Assembly (NCBI RefSeq): GCF_014217805.1
Contig: NZ_CP055156.1
Location: forward strand, 2,424,585-2,488,584
Length of the DNA: 64,000 nt
Direction: 5' to 3'
Source of the DNA: Adhaeribacter swui
Lineage (GTDB): Bacteria; Bacteroidota; Bacteroidia; Cytophagales; Hymenobacteraceae
Shown: piece after piece, positions 23,003-52,407 of the stretch
Numbering within the stretch: position 1 is the first letter of the stretch
How the letters are laid out: each line of letters starts with the position of its first letter
Notes under the pieces: generated by a model
Databases searched by the model: none
What the model saw: the letters and a program-made list of their open reading frames with translations, nothing else
What the model was told of the DNA's origin: nothing
Position numbers and translations under genes: made by a program

Positions 23003-23180
23003 AATATTTTGTAGTCTTGCCTAATTTTTTTAAAACACTTCTTTTAGCCGATTAAACCATTCTTTAGCAGTATCTTAGTATCTGTAATTAGATTATTTTT
23101 AAATTTTTTTATTTGCGTGCAACCAACGGCAGACCATCGGGGTCATGTTGGTGTTGCAGCCTTAAAGGATCCTATTTCGA

Positions 23181-23756
23181 TTGAAACTTTTTACGCGCCA
23201 TTTATCTGAAGACGATGAACTGATTGCCGGGTGCATTGCCGGCAAACGGGACATGCAGCGGCGGCTATACGACAAGTATGCCGCTCGGATGATGGCGGTA
23301 TGCCTGCGGTATTCCCGCACCAGTTTTGAAGCTGAAGATGTGTTGCAGGAAGGTTTTGTGAAAGTGTTTGGCAACATCCAGAATTTTAAACGTGATTGCC
23401 CGATAGAGTTCTGGATCCGGAAAATTATGGTGAATACGGCTTTAAAACACCACCGGCAAAAAATGCACGTAAGTTCGGTGGCCGAAGTAGAGCAGGTAGA
23501 AAATCAGCCGGAAGAAGAATTTATTTTTTCGAATTACGGCTTCGAAGAATTACTGGCCATGGTGCAGCAGTTGGCGCCCCGCTACCAATTGGTTTTTAAC
23601 TTATACGCCATCGAAGGATTTACGCACAAAGAAATTGCCGCCCAACTAGATATTTCGGAAGGTACTTCCAAATCGCAGTATTCGCGGGCACGGGCAATTT
23701 TAAAAGAAATGATTGAATTGAAAGAACGAAAATACAATGAAAAAATCATCAGATAA
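23181..23756 (+). CDS. ECF RNA polymerase sigma factor
   Basis: 191 residues. Region 2 (AEDVLQEGFVKVFGNIQNF, with WIRKIMVNTALKHHRQ) and region 4 helix-turn-helix (LAPRYQLVFNLYAIEGFTHKEIAAQLDISEGTSKSQYSRARAIL) are clear. The start is a TTG, the only sensible one. It overlaps the next gene by 20 bp, a coupled sigma factor / membrane partner arrangement common in Bacteroidota, so the downstream protein probably restrains or senses for this sigma factor. Confidence 0.93.
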   Translation: MKLFTRHLSEDDELIAGCIAGKRDMQRRLYDKYAARMMAVCLRYSRTSFEAEDVLQEGFVKVFGNIQNFKRDCPIEFWIRKIMVNTALKHHRQKMHVSSVAEVEQVENQPEEEFIFSNYGFEELLAMVQQLAPRYQLVFNLYAIEGFTHKEIAAQLDISEGTSKSQYSRARAILKEMIELKERKYNEKIIR

Positions 23757-25383
23757 CACGAACCGGCCTCGTAAGCTGGAGGAGGTTTTCCGGGATGGTT
23801 TTGAGCCAGCCGAGGTAAACCCCCGGGCTAGTACCTGGCACCACATTGAGCAAGAACTGGAAGTGCAGCAAGCCAGCTATTATAAAAAGCGCCTGGTTTG
23901 GTACCGTAGCGTAGCCGCGGCCAGTGTTTCTTTGTTGTTGGTAACCTTGGGTTATTTTTGGTACGATGCCCAAACTCGTCACCAGTTTAATGTGCCTGCC
24001 GCCACAAACAATACCGTGGTGCAAAATAATACTACCCAAAATACCGAAAGTGTAGCAAGCGCTAACCAAAATACTACTTCGGAAGAAGCAAAAATTTTAA
24101 AAAAATCGCCAGTTTATGAATCGTTGGTAAGGCAAACGCCACCAGCAGCCCAACTGGCCCGGTCTGTTAACCGTAAAAATAAAAAAAACAACTTACCAAA
24201 TACCGAATCAAACCCAGAGCAAATAGCAAAAACGCCGTTTCAATCTCCGGACCGGTTTTTTGGTTTCGCCAACAGAAATAAAATAACAGATAAAACCGCT
24301 GCCGAAAAAACGACTGTTGGCGATAATAACGCTATCGTTCCGGAAAATATATTGGCGGCAAACCCGGCGCAAACCGCAACCGTGCCTGCTTTACCCACTG
24401 ATTCGGCTACCGTTTTAGTTGCTAAAAACGAACCAACATTAAAAACCGATAGTGCTGGCGTATTTACGGCGGCGCTAATGCCAGAAGAAACTAAAAAGAA
24501 ATCTGTTGGCTCGCGGTGGGCTTTAGGTGGCGGTACGGGCTCCCAGTACTTCGAGCAGAATATTAAGTTTGATAACGGACCTGGTTTGGCATCGGCCAGC
24601 AATCTGCAAGCCTATAGTTTTTCCAACGTTGCCCGAAATTCTATAACTAACACGGTGGAAGCCGCCAGTGAAGAATTTAACGAAAATACGCAATCTGCTT
24701 TTTCGTTTAGAGCGGCCATAGGGGCTAATTACCGCATCAACGATAAATGGAGCATCGAAACCGGACTAAATTACGCCGAAAATAAAGCTCAGACTTTAAC
24801 TTCATACATTATTTACAAACGCCCTGCGGCTTTAAATGATTTCGCTAACATTAAACCCGAAAATGCTTTTGTACATGATAATTCTAATAATTTAAATTCC
24901 GACGTAACCATACCAGTTACTATTTTTCTAGCCCGGTTAACCGATACGGATTTATCTAATGCCCAGGTAACCGTAGACAAAGTTGAGCCTTTTAACATGT
25001 ATTACCGGTATCGGCAGTTAGGCGTGCCTGTGCGGATGCGTTACCAACAGGGGCGGGGCAAGTGGTTTAATTTTGTGCAGGCCGGGGGCGCTGTTAACGT
25101 TTTGCTGCAAACCAGTATCTTATCTGATTCGCCCAAAGTACCAGCCGTAGAATATTCCCTTGGCCATTCTTCGCCCTTCCGAAAATGGTATTTTACCGGC
25201 TTAGGTTCCGTAGGTCGCGGATTAAAAATATCGGAGGTGTGGCAAGTACAAGGCAGTCTGGATTTAGCTTATAGCTTCTCCACCTTAGCCTTAAGCCCGG
25301 ATCAAGTACCTAATTTAAAGCAGCAAAAGCCTTATTACGTGGGGTTTGGGGTAAGCAGCAGTTATGTGATCGGGAAAAAGTAA
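23737..25383 (+). CDS. Membrane-anchored partner of the sigma factor with outer-membrane-like C-terminal part
   Basis: 548 residues. A charged cytoplasmic N-terminus (residues 1-65), one transmembrane helix (about 66-86, VAAASVSLLLVTLGYFW), a long Asn/Thr-rich linker (90-250) and a C-terminal beta-rich segment (SRWALGGGTGSQYFEQ ... FRAAIGANYRINDKWSIETGLNYAENKA) typical of small outer-membrane beta-barrels (PorT/OMP_b-brl type). Because its start overlaps the sigma gene, an anti-sigma role for the N-terminal part is likely, but this is inference. Confidence 0.8.
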   Translation: MKKSSDNTNRPRKLEEVFRDGFEPAEVNPRASTWHHIEQELEVQQASYYKKRLVWYRSVAAASVSLLLVTLGYFWYDAQTRHQFNVPAATNNTVVQNNTTQNTESVASANQNTTSEEAKILKKSPVYESLVRQTPPAAQLARSVNRKNKKNNLPNTESNPEQIAKTPFQSPDRFFGFANRNKITDKTAAEKTTVGDNNAIVPENILAANPAQTATVPALPTDSATVLVAKNEPTLKTDSAGVFTAALMPEETKKKSVGSRWALGGGTGSQYFEQNIKFDNGPGLASASNLQAYSFSNVARNSITNTVEAASEEFNENTQSAFSFRAAIGANYRINDKWSIETGLNYAENKAQTLTSYIIYKRPAALNDFANIKPENAFVHDNSNNLNSDVTIPVTIFLARLTDTDLSNAQVTVDKVEPFNMYYRYRQLGVPVRMRYQQGRGKWFNFVQAGGAVNVLLQTSILSDSPKVPAVEYSLGHSSPFRKWYFTGLGSVGRGLKISEVWQVQGSLDLAYSFSTLALSPDQVPNLKQQKPYYVGFGVSSSYVIGKK

Positions 25384-46849: not shown

Positions 46850-47383
46850 TTATAATTTACTAAACAACTTGGTAACCCCGGCGTTTACTTCTTTTTCCAG
46901 GGCAGCATCTTTTTTCGGGATAATGCCTTCCATGGTGCCTTGCCATACCAGTTCGTCTTTGCTGGGGTCCACGAGGTGCACCGAAACCGTGCCTTGGCGG
47001 TAGCGGCCTACTTCTACTTGCTGACTTTTCCAGGAATAACGGCGTTGTCCGATGTATTTAGGCGCATCCGTCCGGAAGTCGGTTTGGCGGGTTTGTACTT
47101 TTTCGGTGGTAACAATGCCCAGGTTAATAAGTAAATCCGGGTTAGTGGGCGCTAGCGTTAATCCTTTGGCCGTTAATTGTTGCTGGATGGCGTTTTTTAG
47201 TATGGCAATGCGGTTGTTGTACTGTGCATCTACGGGTTCGCCGTTGTTGGTAACTTCGTAAAAGTTAAAGGTTTTGTAATTGGTTAAGGTAAAATTATCG
47301 GTTGCTTCTATGTTCGAGACGCGGGCCGCGCTGCAACCCCATAAGCCAGTTAAAACTAAAAGAACAAAAAATATATTTTTCAT
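46850..47383 (-). CDS. DUF4136 lipoprotein
   Basis: 177 residues with signal peptide and lipobox (LLVLTGLWGCSAAR). The mature domain is the Bacteroidota DUF4136 fold: NYKTFNFYEVTNN, RIAILKNAIQQQLTAKG, PTNPDLLINLGIVTTEK, VHLVDPSKDELVWQGTMEGI, ending in LEKEVNAGVTKLFSKL. Outer-membrane-associated protein of unknown function. Confidence 0.92.
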   Translation of the reverse strand: MKNIFFVLLVLTGLWGCSAARVSNIEATDNFTLTNYKTFNFYEVTNNGEPVDAQYNNRIAILKNAIQQQLTAKGLTLAPTNPDLLINLGIVTTEKVQTRQTDFRTDAPKYIGQRRYSWKSQQVEVGRYRQGTVSVHLVDPSKDELVWQGTMEGIIPKKDAALEKEVNAGVTKLFSKL

Positions 47384-47517
47384 AGCTTTATCAATCAGAA
47401 TAAAACAAAACGGACGTATCTGGCTTTAATACGAAATTGCCCGAGGGAGTTTGCCGAATAAATACGGAATCCAGAAATGGGAAAATTTAAAAAAGCAGAT
47501 GTAGCGTAGTTCTAAGT

Positions 47518-48120
47518 ATGACCAAACTTTCAAAAGCATTTTACACGCGCCCGGATGTGGTGCAAATTAGCCGGGAGCTGATTGGAAAATACATTTTTAC
47601 CCGAATCGATGGCGTATTAACCGGTGGCAGAATAGTAGAAACCGAGGCGTATTGCGGCGAAAACGATATGGCCTGTCATTCGCACAGCGGCCGCCGGACC
47701 GCCCGCACCGAAATCATGTTTCAGGAAGGCGGCGTGGCCTACGTGTATCTAATTTATGGCATTTACTGTTTGTTTAACATTATCACCAACGTGGCCGAAA
47801 AAGCCGATGCCGTGTTAATCCGGGCCATTGAACCCACCGAAGGTATTCCGGAAATGCTGTTGCGCCGCAACCACACCCAGGTTACACCCAAACTTACCGC
47901 CGGACCGGGCCTGGTTACTTTGGCCTTGGGAATATCTAAAAAACACTACGGTACCGATTTAACCAGTGATTTAATTTGGCTGGAAGATCGTGGTGAAACA
48001 ATACCGGAAGATCAGCTAATTGCGAGCCCACGGGTAGGCGTGGATTATGCCGGTGAAGATGCTTTACTACCCTGGCGTTTCCGACTAAAAAACAGCCGCT
48101 GGACCAGCAAGGCTAAGTAA
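47518..48120 (+). CDS. DNA-3-methyladenine glycosylase (AAG/MPG family)
   Basis: 200 residues of the alkyladenine DNA glycosylase fold: LIGKYIFTRIDG, RIVETEAYCGENDMACHSHSGRRT (catalytic Glu-type region), VAYVYLIYGIYCLFNI and TAGPGLVTLALGI are all family signatures. Removes alkylated purines in base excision repair. The start at ATG 47518 is placed just after AT-rich leader; no operon partner. Confidence 0.95.
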   Translation: MTKLSKAFYTRPDVVQISRELIGKYIFTRIDGVLTGGRIVETEAYCGENDMACHSHSGRRTARTEIMFQEGGVAYVYLIYGIYCLFNIITNVAEKADAVLIRAIEPTEGIPEMLLRRNHTQVTPKLTAGPGLVTLALGISKKHYGTDLTSDLIWLEDRGETIPEDQLIASPRVGVDYAGEDALLPWRFRLKNSRWTSKAK

Positions 48121-48511
48121 ATTAGAATTAAAAAGTCGTTTGTGAAGATACAAACGACGGCAGGTGCGACGGCACATGGGGCTTAGTAAAACAAAATTTT
48201 GAAGGAGTGGGTGTTTGCTTAATCAACAGCATTGCTTGTGGGCAGTGCTTTCACGGCCATCTTTTGAGTAGGTCTTGAAAATTTAAAAATAGTTAAGGGT
48301 AACCTTTAAAGAAGGGAAATAATTTTAAAATTGCTTCTTACACGAAGAAAAATGAACCGCCCTGGTGGTGTCTTCACCAACCAGCTATGCCCAAAACTAG
48401 AGGCGGTTTACGAGGAAAAATGCGGCAGGAATAGTTTTGAATTTAATGAAACCATTCCATACAGCTTATTACTATTCTTTTTGATAATGACTAAAATATA
48501 AGCATTAGTCT
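48121..48511. repeat. Gene-free 391 bp with hairpins of the GTG-TCTT-CAC family
   Basis: GTCGTTTGT-GAAGAT-ACAAACGAC at 48135-48158 and CTGGTGGTG-TCTT-CACCAACCAG (one bulge) at 48362-48384 belong to the same family as 46545-46812; a weaker GGCAGTG-CTTT-CACGGCC occurs at 48241. No coding frame. Confidence 0.6.
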
Positions 48512-49639
48512 TTACATCTTCCATTTGCGGGCAATGTTGTGCGCCGTTTCGATCATGTACGGTTCCCAGGTTTCAATCTGCCAATCGGAGTGGGCGAGCG
48601 ATGAGGTTTGCAGCCTCTGGATGGCTTCTTCGGCTGAACTTGCATTTTCTAAAATACGGGATAAATGTACTTGCTGGGCTGCTAAAGTTTTATCTTCTAT
48701 GGGGTGCTCTGCGATGCTGAGCGACAACGGAAGGAAATCTTTAGCCGGATTAGTTCTTAATTTCTGGTTCTTTCGCTGGAGAATAGCCTCCATTTTTAAA
48801 AAGTCGGCATAAAACAATTGCTTGCTTTCTTCGCTTTTCAGAGCGTTGCCTAATTGTTCCAGTACCACAAATTTCAGGTTAGGGCATTTGTCAATGGTTT
48901 GCGCTAACAACGCAAATACTTCTTCCGGTACAGCTTCGTCGTGGGTATCTCTTCTGATTTGGCGGTTAGGTTCTATGGCGGAGCTTTCCCAGCTACCGCC
49001 CGAAATATGAATTTCCCGGACTCTATCCAGCGGATACAGATTGACAATCTCGTCGTAAGAAGCCCGGAAGTTATGCAGTTGGCAATACAGGTTATGTAAA
49101 TCCAGGATGATAAATCCGTTAACCGGCGTAATAAGCTGCGCTAAAAACTGCCCGTGTTGCTTTACTTCGTCGAGAGAATAAGAAAAAGCCAGGTTCTCCA
49201 GACCAACCGGGCATTTACAGGCATCTTGGATCCGGGCGAGCCGGTCCTGGCCAATGGCTAAGGTGCTGGCGGAGTAAGGAATGGGCAGGGGAGCGCCATG
49301 GTGAAAATTTTGTCCGGTCATAAAGCCAAAATGTTCGGTAATGTGATCGAAAGTATATTGACCCGAAAGCTCCCGGAGGTGCTGCAGCCAGTTTTGCTGG
49401 TTCACGCTCCACTGCCCCGAGAACAACGAAAAATACACGCCATGGCCAATCAGCCGGCCGGCCTGGCCGTAGGTTTGTAATAATTCCGAAAACCAGGCGG
49501 GTATTTGGGGCGTGCGGAATAAAGTATCAAACGACCATTCAATGGCCTCTACCTTGCCAGCCGCAAATAAAGGCAAGGCAGCCGCCAGAATATCCACATC
49601 TAAGTTACAAGCTACCGCAGCTAAAATTTTTTCCGGCAC
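48512..49639 (-). CDS. MNIO (DUF692) multinuclear iron-dependent oxidase, probable RiPP maturase
   Basis: 375 residues with a GTG start. TIM-barrel family motifs with their metal ligands are visible: IGHGVYFSLFSG, ITEHFGFMTG, VGLENLAFSYS, ILDLHNLYCQ, EIHISGGSW, RRDTHDEAVPEEV and VVLEQLGN. Related enzymes (MbnB, TglH, ChrH) rearrange cysteine residues in ribosomal peptides. A C-terminal extension of about 85 residues (from residue 290) may be a partner or peptide-binding part. A 57-residue peptide gene ending in CPGCGMG lies 33 bp upstream on the same strand; it is the likely substrate. Confidence 0.88.
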   Translation of the reverse strand: MPEKILAAVACNLDVDILAAALPLFAAGKVEAIEWSFDTLFRTPQIPAWFSELLQTYGQAGRLIGHGVYFSLFSGQWSVNQQNWLQHLRELSGQYTFDHITEHFGFMTGQNFHHGAPLPIPYSASTLAIGQDRLARIQDACKCPVGLENLAFSYSLDEVKQHGQFLAQLITPVNGFIILDLHNLYCQLHNFRASYDEIVNLYPLDRVREIHISGGSWESSAIEPNRQIRRDTHDEAVPEEVFALLAQTIDKCPNLKFVVLEQLGNALKSEESKQLFYADFLKMEAILQRKNQKLRTNPAKDFLPLSLSIAEHPIEDKTLAAQQVHLSRILENASSAEEAIQRLQTSSLAHSDWQIETWEPYMIETAHNIARKWKM

Positions 49640-49672
49640 AGCTTAGCGAATTTTCGGGGTTAGTAAAAAACA

Positions 49673-49846
49673 TTAACCCATGCCGCAGCCCGGGCAATTT
49701 CCTGGGTCGCTTTTTTCGGGAGTTTTGCTGGTTTTTTCTTTTTGGGTTTTAGGTCCGGGTAGTTCGTTTTTATCGGAGCAACTGGTGGTGGTTTGCACGG
49801 TTATGCCCAATAAAATGGCACCGAGTAGAGCTTTTGGCAGTTCCAT
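49673..49846 (-). CDS. Candidate RiPP precursor peptide with C-terminal CPGCGMG
   Basis: 57 codons from ATG (49846) to TAA. N-terminal hydrophobic segment KALLGAILLGITVQ and a lipobox-like TTSC (Cys23) suggest export, possibly as a lipoprotein. A Lys/Pro/Thr-rich linker (DKNELPGPKTQKEKTSKTPE) follows, and the C-terminus is DPGNCPGCGMG, with two cysteines and a terminal MG. Position 33 bp upstream of, and co-directional with, the MNIO gene makes it the prime substrate candidate. It is too short for typical gene finders. Comparable peptides are known next to MNIO enzymes in Bacteroidota such as Chryseobacterium. Confidence 0.8.
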   Translation of the reverse strand: MELPKALLGAILLGITVQTTTSCSDKNELPGPKTQKEKTSKTPEKSDPGNCPGCGMG

Positions 49847-50033
49847 ATTTTTAAATTTTAAAATTTTGCTTGTAGTAAGTGGTACTAATTTAACACCAGT
49901 GATTTATGCCCGCTGGGCTAATACTTTACTGACCCGGAAGAGTTAACTTTGGTTGCATGCCTTACAAAATTTATTTCGTTGAAAGTAAGCCGGGTAATTT
50001 CAGCTAAGTATAAGTAGGATAATAAATTATGGG

Positions 50034-50091
50034 CATTGTTTCGGTGGAGCCTGTTTAGCTACGTAACTAAATAGATATCTCCTGGATGACA
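50034..50091 (+). repeat. Palindromic intergenic repeat, copy 2
   Basis: Related to 37566-37626: CATTGTTTCGGTGGAGCC, the centre CTGTTTAGCTACGTAACTAA, and CTCCTGGATGAC at the end. More degenerate than copy 1. Confidence 0.6.
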
Positions 50092-50133
50092 CAGAAAAAA
50101 GGCTCGAAACATTTGCTTCGAGCCTTTTTTCTG
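50092..50133 (-). terminator. Terminator downstream of the SDR gene
   Basis: Perfect 17-bp stem (50092-50108 with 50117-50133, core AAAAAAGGCTCGAA) with 8-base loop; A-rich and T-rich arms make it bidirectional. Confidence 0.88.
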
Positions 50134-50184
50134 TATTTAACTTAATTTGAAAACGCCATAAAATTTAAAAATTGGCGGGTATAA

Positions 50185-51042
50185 TTAAGCTTCTACGGCA
50201 AAATCTACGGATTGGCTCACGGGAGCCCATTGCGCGAATTCGGCTTGTAGCGCGTATAGTTTGTTCGTGGCTAGTTCCAGGGCGTCGCTGCCCAGTAGCA
50301 AATGCAGCGGCGGGTTTTCTACTTGGGCGGCATTAATAATAGCGGCTACGGCTTTCTCGGGGTCGCCGGGCTGGTTGCCGTTAATTTGTTCCTGGTGTAA
50401 CCTTTGCATTTCGCGGGTACTTTGGTACTTGGGCAATTGTTTTTTTGCCGTTACCACGGAGCCAGCTTTTAAGAAATTTGTGCGGATATAACCCGGCAGC
50501 ACCGCGGTAACTTTAATGTTAAAATCTTTCACCTCCATAGCTAATGCTTCGGTAAAACCAATTACGGCAAATTTGGTAGCGCAGTAAATGCCAAAACCCG
50601 GATAATCGCCGGACATGCCCGCTATAGACGAAATATTAAAAATATGCCCGAAACCTTGTTGGCGTAAATGCGGCAAGGTGGCCCGGATAATGTTTAAAGA
50701 CCCAAACACGTTTACGTCGAAATTCTGGCGGGCTTCCTGGTCGGATAGTTCTTCCAGGCTACCAATTAAGCCGTAACCGGCGTTGTTTACCACGTAATCA
50801 ATCTGGCCAAAAGTTTCGATTGTTTGGGCAATGGCTTGCGTTACGCTGGCTTCATCGGTAATATTCAGGGCCAAAGGTAAAAAGCTATTGTGGGTACTAC
50901 TTATGGCTTGCTGCAATTGATCCAGATTCCGAGAGGTGGCCGCTACCCGGTATCCTTGCTCTAATAATTGCCGGGTAAGCGAAAGACCGATTCCCTGCGA
51001 CGCTCCCGTAATAAACCATACTTTGTTCTGTTGCTTGTTCAT
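50185..51042 (-). CDS. SDR family oxidoreductase
   Basis: 285 residues, classical short-chain dehydrogenase: WFITGASQGIGLSLT cofactor loop, YVVNNAGYGL, FNISSIAGMSGDYPGFG with catalytic Ser, and YCATKFAVIG (YxxxK). NADP-type specificity is likely from ATSRN after the second strand. Substrate unknown. Single gene with its own terminator. Confidence 0.93.
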   Translation of the reverse strand: MNKQQNKVWFITGASQGIGLSLTRQLLEQGYRVAATSRNLDQLQQAISSTHNSFLPLALNITDEASVTQAIAQTIETFGQIDYVVNNAGYGLIGSLEELSDQEARQNFDVNVFGSLNIIRATLPHLRQQGFGHIFNISSIAGMSGDYPGFGIYCATKFAVIGFTEALAMEVKDFNIKVTAVLPGYIRTNFLKAGSVVTAKKQLPKYQSTREMQRLHQEQINGNQPGDPEKAVAAIINAAQVENPPLHLLLGSDALELATNKLYALQAEFAQWAPVSQSVDFAVEA

Positions 51043-51199
51043 AGCGTAATTGTTTTTTTGTACAGTACAAAATTAGCTACCCAGGCACGGCAAGTGTTTA
51101 CGCGATTCAAACCAATGCTTGCTCAATTCAAATAAGGGCTAAAAACAAGCAACAGAAAAGTAAAATTTTTAAAAAACTGAACCAGCTTAAGCTTTTGGC

Positions 51200-51964
51200 T
51201 TAGTTCCAGATCCCGTTCATCTCGGTTAAAACCAAAGGTTTACCATCGGTTATTACCAGGGTATGTTCGTGTTGCGCCACAAAGCCGCCCTTGTTGCCCA
51301 CCAAAGTCCAGCCATCGTTTTCGGTTTCGGCGTAAGTAGAATGGGTGGAGATGAATGTTTCCACGGCAATTACCGAGTTTTTCTTAAACCGGGTAAAATT
51401 AAAGCGGTCGTAGTAATTCGCGATTTCGCCAGGTTCTTCGTGCAGCTTGCGGCCAATGCCGTGGCCAGTTAAATTCTTAATTACTTTGTAGCCCGATTTT
51501 TTTGCTTCGGTTTCAATTAACCGGCCCAACTCGGCCACGCGCATACCGCCTTTAATCGAGTTAATGGCTTTGGCCAGGATTTGTTTTGAAGCATCTACCA
51601 AGGGTTGGTGGTGGTTTATATCTTCACCCAAAATAAAAGAACCGCCGTTATCGGCCCAAAAACCATTTAACTCCGCCGATACATCAATGTTAATTAAATC
51701 GCCTTCCTGGAGCACCCGGGTAGCCGACGGAATACCGTGGGCAATTTCGTTATTCACGCTGATGCAGGTCCAGCCGGGGAAATTATAAGTAAGCGCCGGT
51801 GCCGAATTTGCCCCGAGTTTTTTTATAATTTGCCCGCCAAATTCATCTATTTCTTTGGTAGTCATACCTACCCTGGTGTATTCGCGCATTTCCCGGAGAG
51901 CGGTAGCCACTACTTCACTAATTATTTTCATGCCGGTTAGTTCGGCTTCTTTGGTTATCGACAT
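51200..51964 (-). CDS. map: Methionine aminopeptidase type I
   Basis: 254 residues. Removes the initiator methionine from nascent proteins; two-metal pita-bread fold: metal ligands in INIDVSAELNGFWADNG, KNLTGHGIGRKLHEEPGEI, IAVETFIS and QHEHTLVI are all visible. An opening of SITKEAELTGMKIISEVVAT is typical of the type I form. Single gene, far from secY here. Confidence 0.96.
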   Translation of the reverse strand: MSITKEAELTGMKIISEVVATALREMREYTRVGMTTKEIDEFGGQIIKKLGANSAPALTYNFPGWTCISVNNEIAHGIPSATRVLQEGDLINIDVSAELNGFWADNGGSFILGEDINHHQPLVDASKQILAKAINSIKGGMRVAELGRLIETEAKKSGYKVIKNLTGHGIGRKLHEEPGEIANYYDRFNFTRFKKNSVIAVETFISTHSTYAETENDGWTLVGNKGGFVAQHEHTLVITDGKPLVLTEMNGIWN

Positions 51965-52407
51965 CGTAACTTAATTTATATGTGTAATCACCACGCTGGC
52001 TAAAAGAATACTTGCTCTTTCGGCTAAACAGGGGTTGTTTTAATGGTAACAAAGGTCAGCCGTGTTTTTACTCCCGATTACGCCATGAAATGGCAATAAA
52101 GACGAAAAATTCGTCTTGCTAAATTATTTTTTAAATTTTAAAATTTAGATCAAACAAAGTAACCCAACCAGCCTCCAATACGCCAGTCCCGAGAAAAATT
52201 AAAAAACTAGGAAGTAATAATTAAATAATTTTAAAAAATAAATAAGGTACGATGCTAGGTTTTAGGATATTTTCTAATTATCTATCTGATTTCCAGATAG
52301 CTTAAGCTGGTGGCAATGCAAGCTTGCGAAATTTCCCGCTTTGCTTGTAAACCCAACCCGAAATAGCTTCTTATGTAAATTCAGCCTAAACAATTAATCT
52401 GACCAAA
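51965..52407. other. Gene-free 443 bp
   Basis: Mostly AT-rich with TTTAAA palindromes (52126-52148, 52208-52235) and no coding frames. The stretch 52290-52360 (CAAGCTTGCG, GCTTAAGCTGG) looks like decayed repeat. Presumably carries promoters for map (leftward) and the SnoaL-like gene (rightward). Confidence 0.4.

Follow-up and report, generated by a model that had tools for sequence, protein, structure and literature searches.

A probable DybA/DybH-type DAG-RiPP operon in Adhaeribacter swui, with a promoter-like site that suggests envelope sigma factor control

The gene pair described here lies on the minus strand of a 64,000-nucleotide stretch of the Adhaeribacter swui genome (the window; contig NZ_CP055156.1, positions 2,424,585–2,488,584), and consists of a short precursor gene, dybA, followed by dybH, which encodes an oxidase of the MNIO class. 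The pair is a further member of the described DAG-RiPP family of ribosomally synthesized and post-translationally modified peptides (RiPPs), with a CPGCGMG core, and we put the probability that the locus is an operon of the DybA/DybH type at about 0.86. New here is a promoter-like site, recurring ahead of a small set of other genes, which suggests that the operon is controlled by an envelope sigma factor together with other lipoproteins.

The precursor gene (49673–49846, minus strand) is an ATG-started frame of 57 codons. Its hydrophobic N-terminus, a predicted lipoprotein signal peptide (MELPKALLGAILLGITVQTTTS), runs into the sequence TTSC, the Cys of which (residue 23; signal and Cys together at 49778–49846, minus strand) was called as the lipid-attachment site by sequence pattern. 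A Lys/Pro linker follows, and the frame closes with DPGNCPGCGMG and a stop codon, the C-terminal core CPGCGMG occupying 49676–49696 on the same strand. The model NF050125, ‘chryseobasin-related MNIO class RiPP peptide’, aligns with the whole precursor from end to end (86.3 bits, E 1.7e-24, cut-off 40), and a genome-wide search for DNA encoding CPxCG[MLV]G and a stop codon gives a single hit, at this gene, the reversed control giving none. Because of this end-to-end match and the genome-wide uniqueness of the core pattern, the frame is not a chance one. The same DNA scan found no further substrates with this C-terminus elsewhere in the genome.

A gap of 33 bp separates the precursor from the GTG-started enzyme frame (48512–49639, minus strand), whose 375-residue product was assigned to the ChrH/DybH subfamily of MNIO enzymes from its matches to PF05114 and MNIO_ChrH, an alignment and a structure match. 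It scores 110 bits against PF05114 (MbnB_TglH_ChrH; cut-off 25) and is the only enzyme match genome-wide. The best-scoring model, MNIO_ChrH (NF050165), gives 410 bits and thus falls short of its equivalog cut-off of 600, which tells against the assignment; all homologues checked, the DybH locus among them, likewise miss it (6/6). Homologous loci were the best 80 of 87 from one genome scan, making 81 with the window, and the enzyme alignment and model covered 54 of the 80, plus the window. The enzyme is 44–65% identical to these homologues, with 44 invariant columns; H66, E102, H103, E148, D180, H182, N183, H211, D231, H233 and E261 are invariant in 55/55 sequences. Several of these are residues that we take to be iron ligands, from the structures of MbnB and TglH, and an alignment with TglH has the same candidate ligands, bar E102. 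The AlphaFold2 model (mean predicted local distance difference test score, pLDDT, 92.6) has helices at residues 317–332, 336–344 and 360–372, with pLDDT above 90 for residue blocks 311–370, and the nine top Protein Data Bank matches found with Foldseek are TglH, MbnB or DUF692 entries. These helices form a C-terminal domain (residues 317–372; 48524–48691, minus strand) that is characteristic of the ChrH subfamily, both from this model and as described in PMC12636315.

That source, a preprint of November 2025, describes a large clade of ChrH-like MNIO enzymes in Bacteroidota outside Chryseobacterium. Precursors of the clade combine a C-terminal CPxCGxG core with an extra invariant Cys, proven to be a lipobox Cys, and the enzymes carry the fused C-terminal helical domain and have no partner gene. 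A −4 Da product is reported for DybA/DybH, ChsA/ChsH and HymA/HymH; for DybA, nuclear magnetic resonance supports a macrocycle and a hydantoin, the product has one free core thiol and no ultraviolet–visible (UV–vis) feature, and the peptide, a ‘DAG-RiPP’, is triacylated in Escherichia coli (PMC12636315). The window has the same anatomy: an MNIO fold with conserved candidate ligands and fused C-terminal helices, an adjacent CPxCGxG precursor with a lipobox Cys after a hydrophobic signal, and no gene for a partner protein among the five neighbours scanned, which encode a DNA glycosylase, a DUF4136 protein, a TonB-dependent receptor, a short-chain dehydrogenase/reductase and a methionine aminopeptidase.

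With DybA/DybH of Dyadobacter crusticola DSM 16708, the window pair shares the two-gene order, the lipobox Cys, a CPxCGMG core, the fused domain and the lack of a partner; the core is CPGCGMG rather than CPACGMG, and the linkers differ. The enzymes of the two are 60% identical over 372 residues, and the precursor found at the D. crusticola locus (L059) agrees with the DybA residue numbers in PMC12636315 (Met26-Asp27, Ala46 and a 13-residue LysC tail). HymA/HymH of Hymenobacter gelipurpurascens, compared by its description in PMC12636315, has the CPGC core of the window and a reported −4 Da product, and HymA ends in CPGCGLG as opposed to CPGCGMG. In an enzyme tree built by a quick method, the window sequence groups with six Hymenobacteraceae rows and one metagenome-assembled genome (MAG) of Cytophagales (96% support in the Shimodaira–Hasegawa-like approximate likelihood-ratio test), and enzymes of Hymenobacter rank among its nearest relatives.

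The original prediction, made from the DNA letters, had described the 57-codon frame and the MNIO gene with their coordinates, the TTSC lipobox ahead of the core, the 33 bp gap and the absence of a separate partner gene, all of which we confirmed, and it had recognized a DUF692 enzyme with its own precursor, which the PF05114 and NF050125 scores bear out. Its proposal that CPGCGMG is the modified core is very likely correct, judging by homology with the characterized family. Its claim of an undescribed system was rejected: PMC12636315 characterizes three such pairs, and NCBIfam already models the peptide as NF050125. The lipobox, the C-terminal extension and the missing partner, which had been listed as oddities, all define the group described in that preprint.

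Two other identities were weighed. The product could be a metallophore-like or metal-buffering peptide of the methanobactin, bufferin or oxazolin type, in which an MNIO makes metal-binding heterocycles from Cys that chelate copper. Membership of the MNIO superfamily, the two Cys residues of the core and an additional H-x3-C-x3-C-x3-H stretch that 10/81 precursors have in their linker speak for it. Bufferins and oxazolins, too, are Cys peptides modified by an MNIO, and some of them have lipoprotein signals (PMC12452194). However, the enzyme scores far below cut-off against the models for Bufferin (BufB; 94.6 of 310 bits), HvfB (76.7 of 360) and MbnB (25.4 of 325), no DUF2063 or MbnC-like partner is present among the five neighbours, and the H/C stretch does not occur in the window precursor. 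Bufferins and oxazolins have other core motifs, a separate partner protein and copper-binding heterocycles (PMC12452194), whereas the DybA product lacks a UV–vis feature and has one of its two core thiols tied up (PMC12636315). We consider this identity very unlikely, and metal chelation as the default function was rejected on the family-model scores and PMC12636315; the earlier suggestion of a ‘perhaps metal-chelating’ product is unsupported in view of the macrocycle, hydantoin and single free core thiol of DybA.

Chryseobasin proper, the S-methylated +10 Da product of a ChrA/ChrH/ChrI-type cluster, shares its MNIO subfamily and C-terminal motif with the window (PMC10214503), and MNIO_ChrH is the top-scoring enzyme model. 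Its own precursor model, NF050124, gives 14.3 bits against a cut-off of 50, and none of ChrI (DUF1772), ChrE and ChrP, nor any epimerase or M42 peptidase gene, was found among the five neighbours; with both equivalog cut-offs missed and these cluster genes absent there, the locus was not assigned to chryseobasin itself, an identity that seems more improbable still. The chryseobasin precursor is longer and has no lipobox Cys (PMC10214503); the same lack is described for Chryseobacterium precursors in PMC12636315, unlike in the window, and the product of the Hymenobacter, Chitinophaga and Dyadobacter homologues is reported there to be unmethylated. The preferred identity is thus a DybA/DybH-type operon.

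The pairing of precursor and enzyme extends across the family. A precursor frame with the core motif lies upstream of the enzyme gene in 78/81 loci, and frames ending in CIACGMG in two more, so that a precursor stands beside the orthologous DUF692 gene in 80/81, as the original prediction had asked; L043 is the sole locus without one. Its second check, on conservation of the CPGC residues, was answered in part: both Cys residues are kept, yet the 78 precursors were found by the CPxCGx motif, so that this conservation is partly there by construction. The two CIACGMG precursors (L070 and L073, Chitinophaga), in which the core Pro is replaced by Ile with both Cys kept, were missed by the motif and enter no statistics. 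Among 92 motif-bearing frames, the core is CPACGMG in 66 and CPGCGMG in 13, and a lipobox was found by regular expression in 79. These 79 are the basis of the lipobox and signal-peptide statistics; of the frames left out, seven have a Cys ending the hydrophobic stretch outside the regular expression and six have none.

Among 39 genomes, the source genome included, nine match the precursor model, and those nine are also the ones with an enzyme of 60–100% identity; three others have distant MNIO matches only, at about 25% identity. In a sample of 395 genomes from the phylum, seven match the precursor model, three of them over the cut-off; the four lower matches are three unrelated lipoproteins whose signal peptides are similar (L094–L096) and one precursor (L097), which ends in SCPACGMG, lacks a lipobox Cys and lies directly 5′ of a 366-residue MNIO frame.

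The start of the signal peptide is conserved to an extent that the linker is not. Among the 79 precursors, mean pairwise identity is 0.59 for residues 2–12, 0.26 for the ten residues before the lipid Cys, 0.16 and 0.13 for the two ends of the linker and 0.92 for the last seven residues, the last figure resting on sequences found by the core motif itself. Position 4 is only ever Ser or Pro, and position 10 is Ala in 95%. Between genera, signal-peptide identity is 0.68 (29 pairs), compared with 0.25 for BamD, 0.35 for a GldJ-like protein (29 pairs) and 0.36 for DUF4136 (14 pairs; control available in 7/9 genomes) from the same genomes, so that the dybA signal peptide appears unusually conserved between genera. 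Within genera, its identity of 0.84 compares with 0.83, 0.86 and 0.50 for BamD, the GldJ-like protein and DUF4136, and thus does not differ from two of the three control lipoprotein families. The stronger control is internal, namely residues 2–12 against the linker. Part of the conservation is generic, because NF050125 also matched, with low score, the N-termini of three unrelated lipoproteins, and horizontal or recent transfer of dybAH may confound the comparison between genera. A conserved signal-peptide start fits badly with the published expectation of relaxed N-terminal selection.

Residues following the lipid Cys resemble, in the family, the surface-export signals of Bacteroidota lipoproteins, described as C-X-K-(D/E)2-X in Capnocytophaga canimorsus and as SDDDD and SDDFE in two other species (PMC5080379). 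Of the 79 precursors, 38 have Lys at position +3, 62 have Asp or Glu at +4 or +5, and 15 have the exact C-X-K-(D/E)2; among 59 control lipoprotein candidates drawn from those loci, the respective numbers are 11, 15 and 1. Against a surface signal stand the non-independence of related sequences, a control set that contains doubtful entries, one of them an MNIO frame (L047), and the window peptide itself, whose SDKNE at +2 to +6 departs from the exact C-X-K-(D/E)2 signal. Surface display of the lipopeptide is likely for the family on these sequence counts, and plausible for the window peptide, because SDKNE is nearer to the SD-type signal.

Upstream of dybA, a promoter-like site TGCAACC-N17-GTCA (49930–49957, minus strand) starts 111 bp 5′ of the ATG. 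When the upstream regions of four congeneric genomes were aligned, it stood out as an island (with ATCA in one genome, G003) in otherwise divergent DNA. AAC and GTC pairs of this kind are, we assume, typical of promoters for extracytoplasmic function (ECF) sigma factors. The form TGCAAC is found in Hymenobacteraceae; dyb operons of Chitinophaga have TGTAAC-N16-CGTT, and those of Dyadobacter have TACAAC with TCTT in place of the TGCAACC-N17-GTCA of the window. A pattern covering these forms occurs within 200 bp of the start in 37/73 dyb operons (loci with a located regular-expression lipobox precursor, plus three congeneric genomes) and 9/560 other genes, and by group in 14/15 of Chitinophaga, 13/15 of Dyadobacter and 8/10 of Hymenobacteraceae. 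Its force is reduced by the way in which it was obtained, having been fitted after the fact on the sequences that were then counted; just 2/33 loci outside the three groups have it, and six sequences outside the fit gave one full match, two matches to the first half only and three without any. A scan for sigma-70 promoters found three sites where shuffling predicts 3.7, and a housekeeping-type Bacteroidota promoter, in the one pattern applied, was present in 0/73 dyb upstream stretches.

The only other exact site in the window (23118–23145, plus strand) ends 36 bp before the proposed TTG start of an ECF-type sigma factor gene (23181–23756, plus strand), whose product matches TIGR02937 (93.3 bits, cut-off 42.9), Sigma70_r2 and r4_2 and is the proposed regulator of dybAH. 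The end of this gene is overlapped by the frame of a 548-residue protein (23737–25383, plus strand) with an N-terminal membrane-like stretch, identified by eye, and a match below cut-off to the outer-membrane beta-barrel family PF13568 (E 8.5e-4); it is possibly a signal-transducing partner of the sigma factor. The four congeneric genomes contain 20 exact sites, three to seven per genome, of which 15 stand before genes of four recurring kinds: dybA (3; in the remaining genome the site has the ATCA form), the ECF sigma factor (4) and two lipoproteins, a serpin (4) and an LVIVD protein (4). The gene kinds were equated across genomes by sequence likeness, and Pfam was run on the copies of the present genome, where the serpin lipoprotein matches PF00079 with 248.7 bits and the LVIVD lipoprotein PF08309 with 38.7 bits. 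In two Pontibacter genomes, the six sites comprise two each before a sigma factor gene, dybA and a small lipoprotein gene about 350 bp further on, a 35-codon frame lying between site and gene in the last case. One genome of another family (G028) has five sites. Two are inside coding regions; the other three precede a sigma-like gene, a lipoprotein gene and a gene for a small lipoprotein, the last with an LVIVD-like gene after it.

From this distribution, we tentatively propose, at rather less than even odds, that the DAG-RiPP is an output of an autoregulated envelope ECF regulon, in which the sigma factor, serpin and LVIVD genes would be co-induced with it as a surface-defence set, Chitinophaga and Dyadobacter using ECF factors of their own. 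Several observations weigh against this proposal. Five of the 20 congeneric sites lie elsewhere (three precede genes of other kinds and two fall within coding regions), the reversed pattern by itself gave seven sites in the same genomes, and the LVIVD frame of one of them (G006) stops after 154 residues. Of three sites in genome G442, one is that of dybA and the other two have no clear target. Of 30 sigma-gene loci in 14 genomes, 29 were readable, and two of these had the site, one being the best hit in Pontibacter and the other the second hit in a Chitinophaga genome. It is absent from the best hits in Hymenobacter (two genomes), Dyadobacter (six) and Chitinophaga (four). In the six Dyadobacter genomes, 23 sites include five at dyb operons (in 5/6 genomes) and none at serpin, LVIVD or sigma genes; five of the 23 precede small lipoproteins.

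The motif might instead be recognized by ECF factors throughout the phylum, and so be uninformative about the sigma factor at 23181 or an envelope response. We regard this as a serious, if less likely, possibility. In its favour, other genera have half-sites close to several further ECF genes, the dyb operons of Chitinophaga and Dyadobacter carry related but different forms, and in those two the site is missing from the best sigma homologues. Weighing the other way, exact sites number only three to seven per genome, and in four congeneric genomes the four kinds of gene recur behind them although the spacers differ. In the literature searched, which left most subscription journals outside its coverage, we found neither a link between DAG-RiPPs and such a regulon nor, among the papers listed, a pairing of the TGCAACC site with sigma factors; Buf1 clusters do contain sigma and anti-sigma genes, and the sigma-factor passages of the survey PMC12452194 concern bufferin clusters.

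The Dyadobacter genomes also show a dyb-type site 49–54 bp 5′ of lipoprotein-like frames of 141–142 residues (L234, L241, L244, L245 and L250), which have an RCP-x4-C motif in common and form a candidate co-regulated family.

Around the operon, no gene cluster besides the pair itself recurs in more than 11/81 loci, according to a crude gene call; the commonest neighbours are TonB-dependent receptors (11), ECF sigma factors (10) and SusD proteins (8). A DUF4136 lipoprotein-like gene (46850–47383, minus strand, in the window; L149–L152) lies 3′ of dybH in all four congeneric operon-bearing genomes, the G003 copy having one internal stop. No Rfam match reached the gathering threshold within 47000–52000.

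Variation among precursors was seen at a number of loci. Two or three precursors accompany one enzyme in L024, L027, L034, L038, L045, L049, L051, L057, L058, L066, L078 and L088; in L051 and L078 one frame each is without a lipobox, and one enzyme may therefore serve both lipidated and secreted substrates. The H-x3-C-x3-C-x3-H stretch lies between the lipid Cys and the core, mostly in Saprospiraceae and Chitinophagales MAGs (L062, L063, L067, L071, L074, L075, L077, L088, with two, and L093), and its spacing would set all four residues on one face of a helix. On the enzyme tree, its distribution takes three changes, below all 500 shuffles; the stretch is not mentioned in the cited text of PMC12636315, and ‘CxxxC’ does not occur in the main text. 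A ChrH-type MNIO frame of about barrel length is also present on a contig of an Acidimicrobiales MAG (L090; CALHYX010000035.1, 70% GC), with an upstream precursor that ends in CPACGMG and has no lipobox by regular expression; it possibly adds a further phylum to the ChrH subfamily, misbinning being an alternative.

In the mechanism we propose, an envelope signal would act through the autoregulated ECF sigma factor to bring about transcription of dybAH. In the cytoplasm, the MNIO, working alone with its fused C-terminal domain, would oxidize CPGCGMG by four electrons (−4 Da), yielding a sulfur-bridged macrocycle and a hydantoin with a free thiol. Export, lipidation on Cys 23 and cleavage by signal peptidase II would then give a lipopeptide of 35 residues, its linker rich in Lys and Pro and its tail modified; this would pass to the outer membrane and probably to the cell surface. 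Confidence is high that the core chemistry would be that of the characterized DybAH and HymAH, and lipidation of Cys 23 is likewise predicted from characterized homologues. It is moderate for surface display, which sequence statistics suggest, and for control of dybAH by the ECF sigma factor, to which the anatomy of the promoter points. Confidence is low for a protective or antagonistic role at the surface, which is proposed because the apparent co-targets within the genus are two lipoproteins, a serpin and an LVIVD protein. PMC12636315 points out that the DAG-RiPP ring resembles the ring with which nisin binds lipid II.

If correct, the regulon would give the product, described in PMC12636315 as being of unknown role, its first functional setting, and the question would become which envelope signal induces a lipidated macrocycle and a protease inhibitor together.

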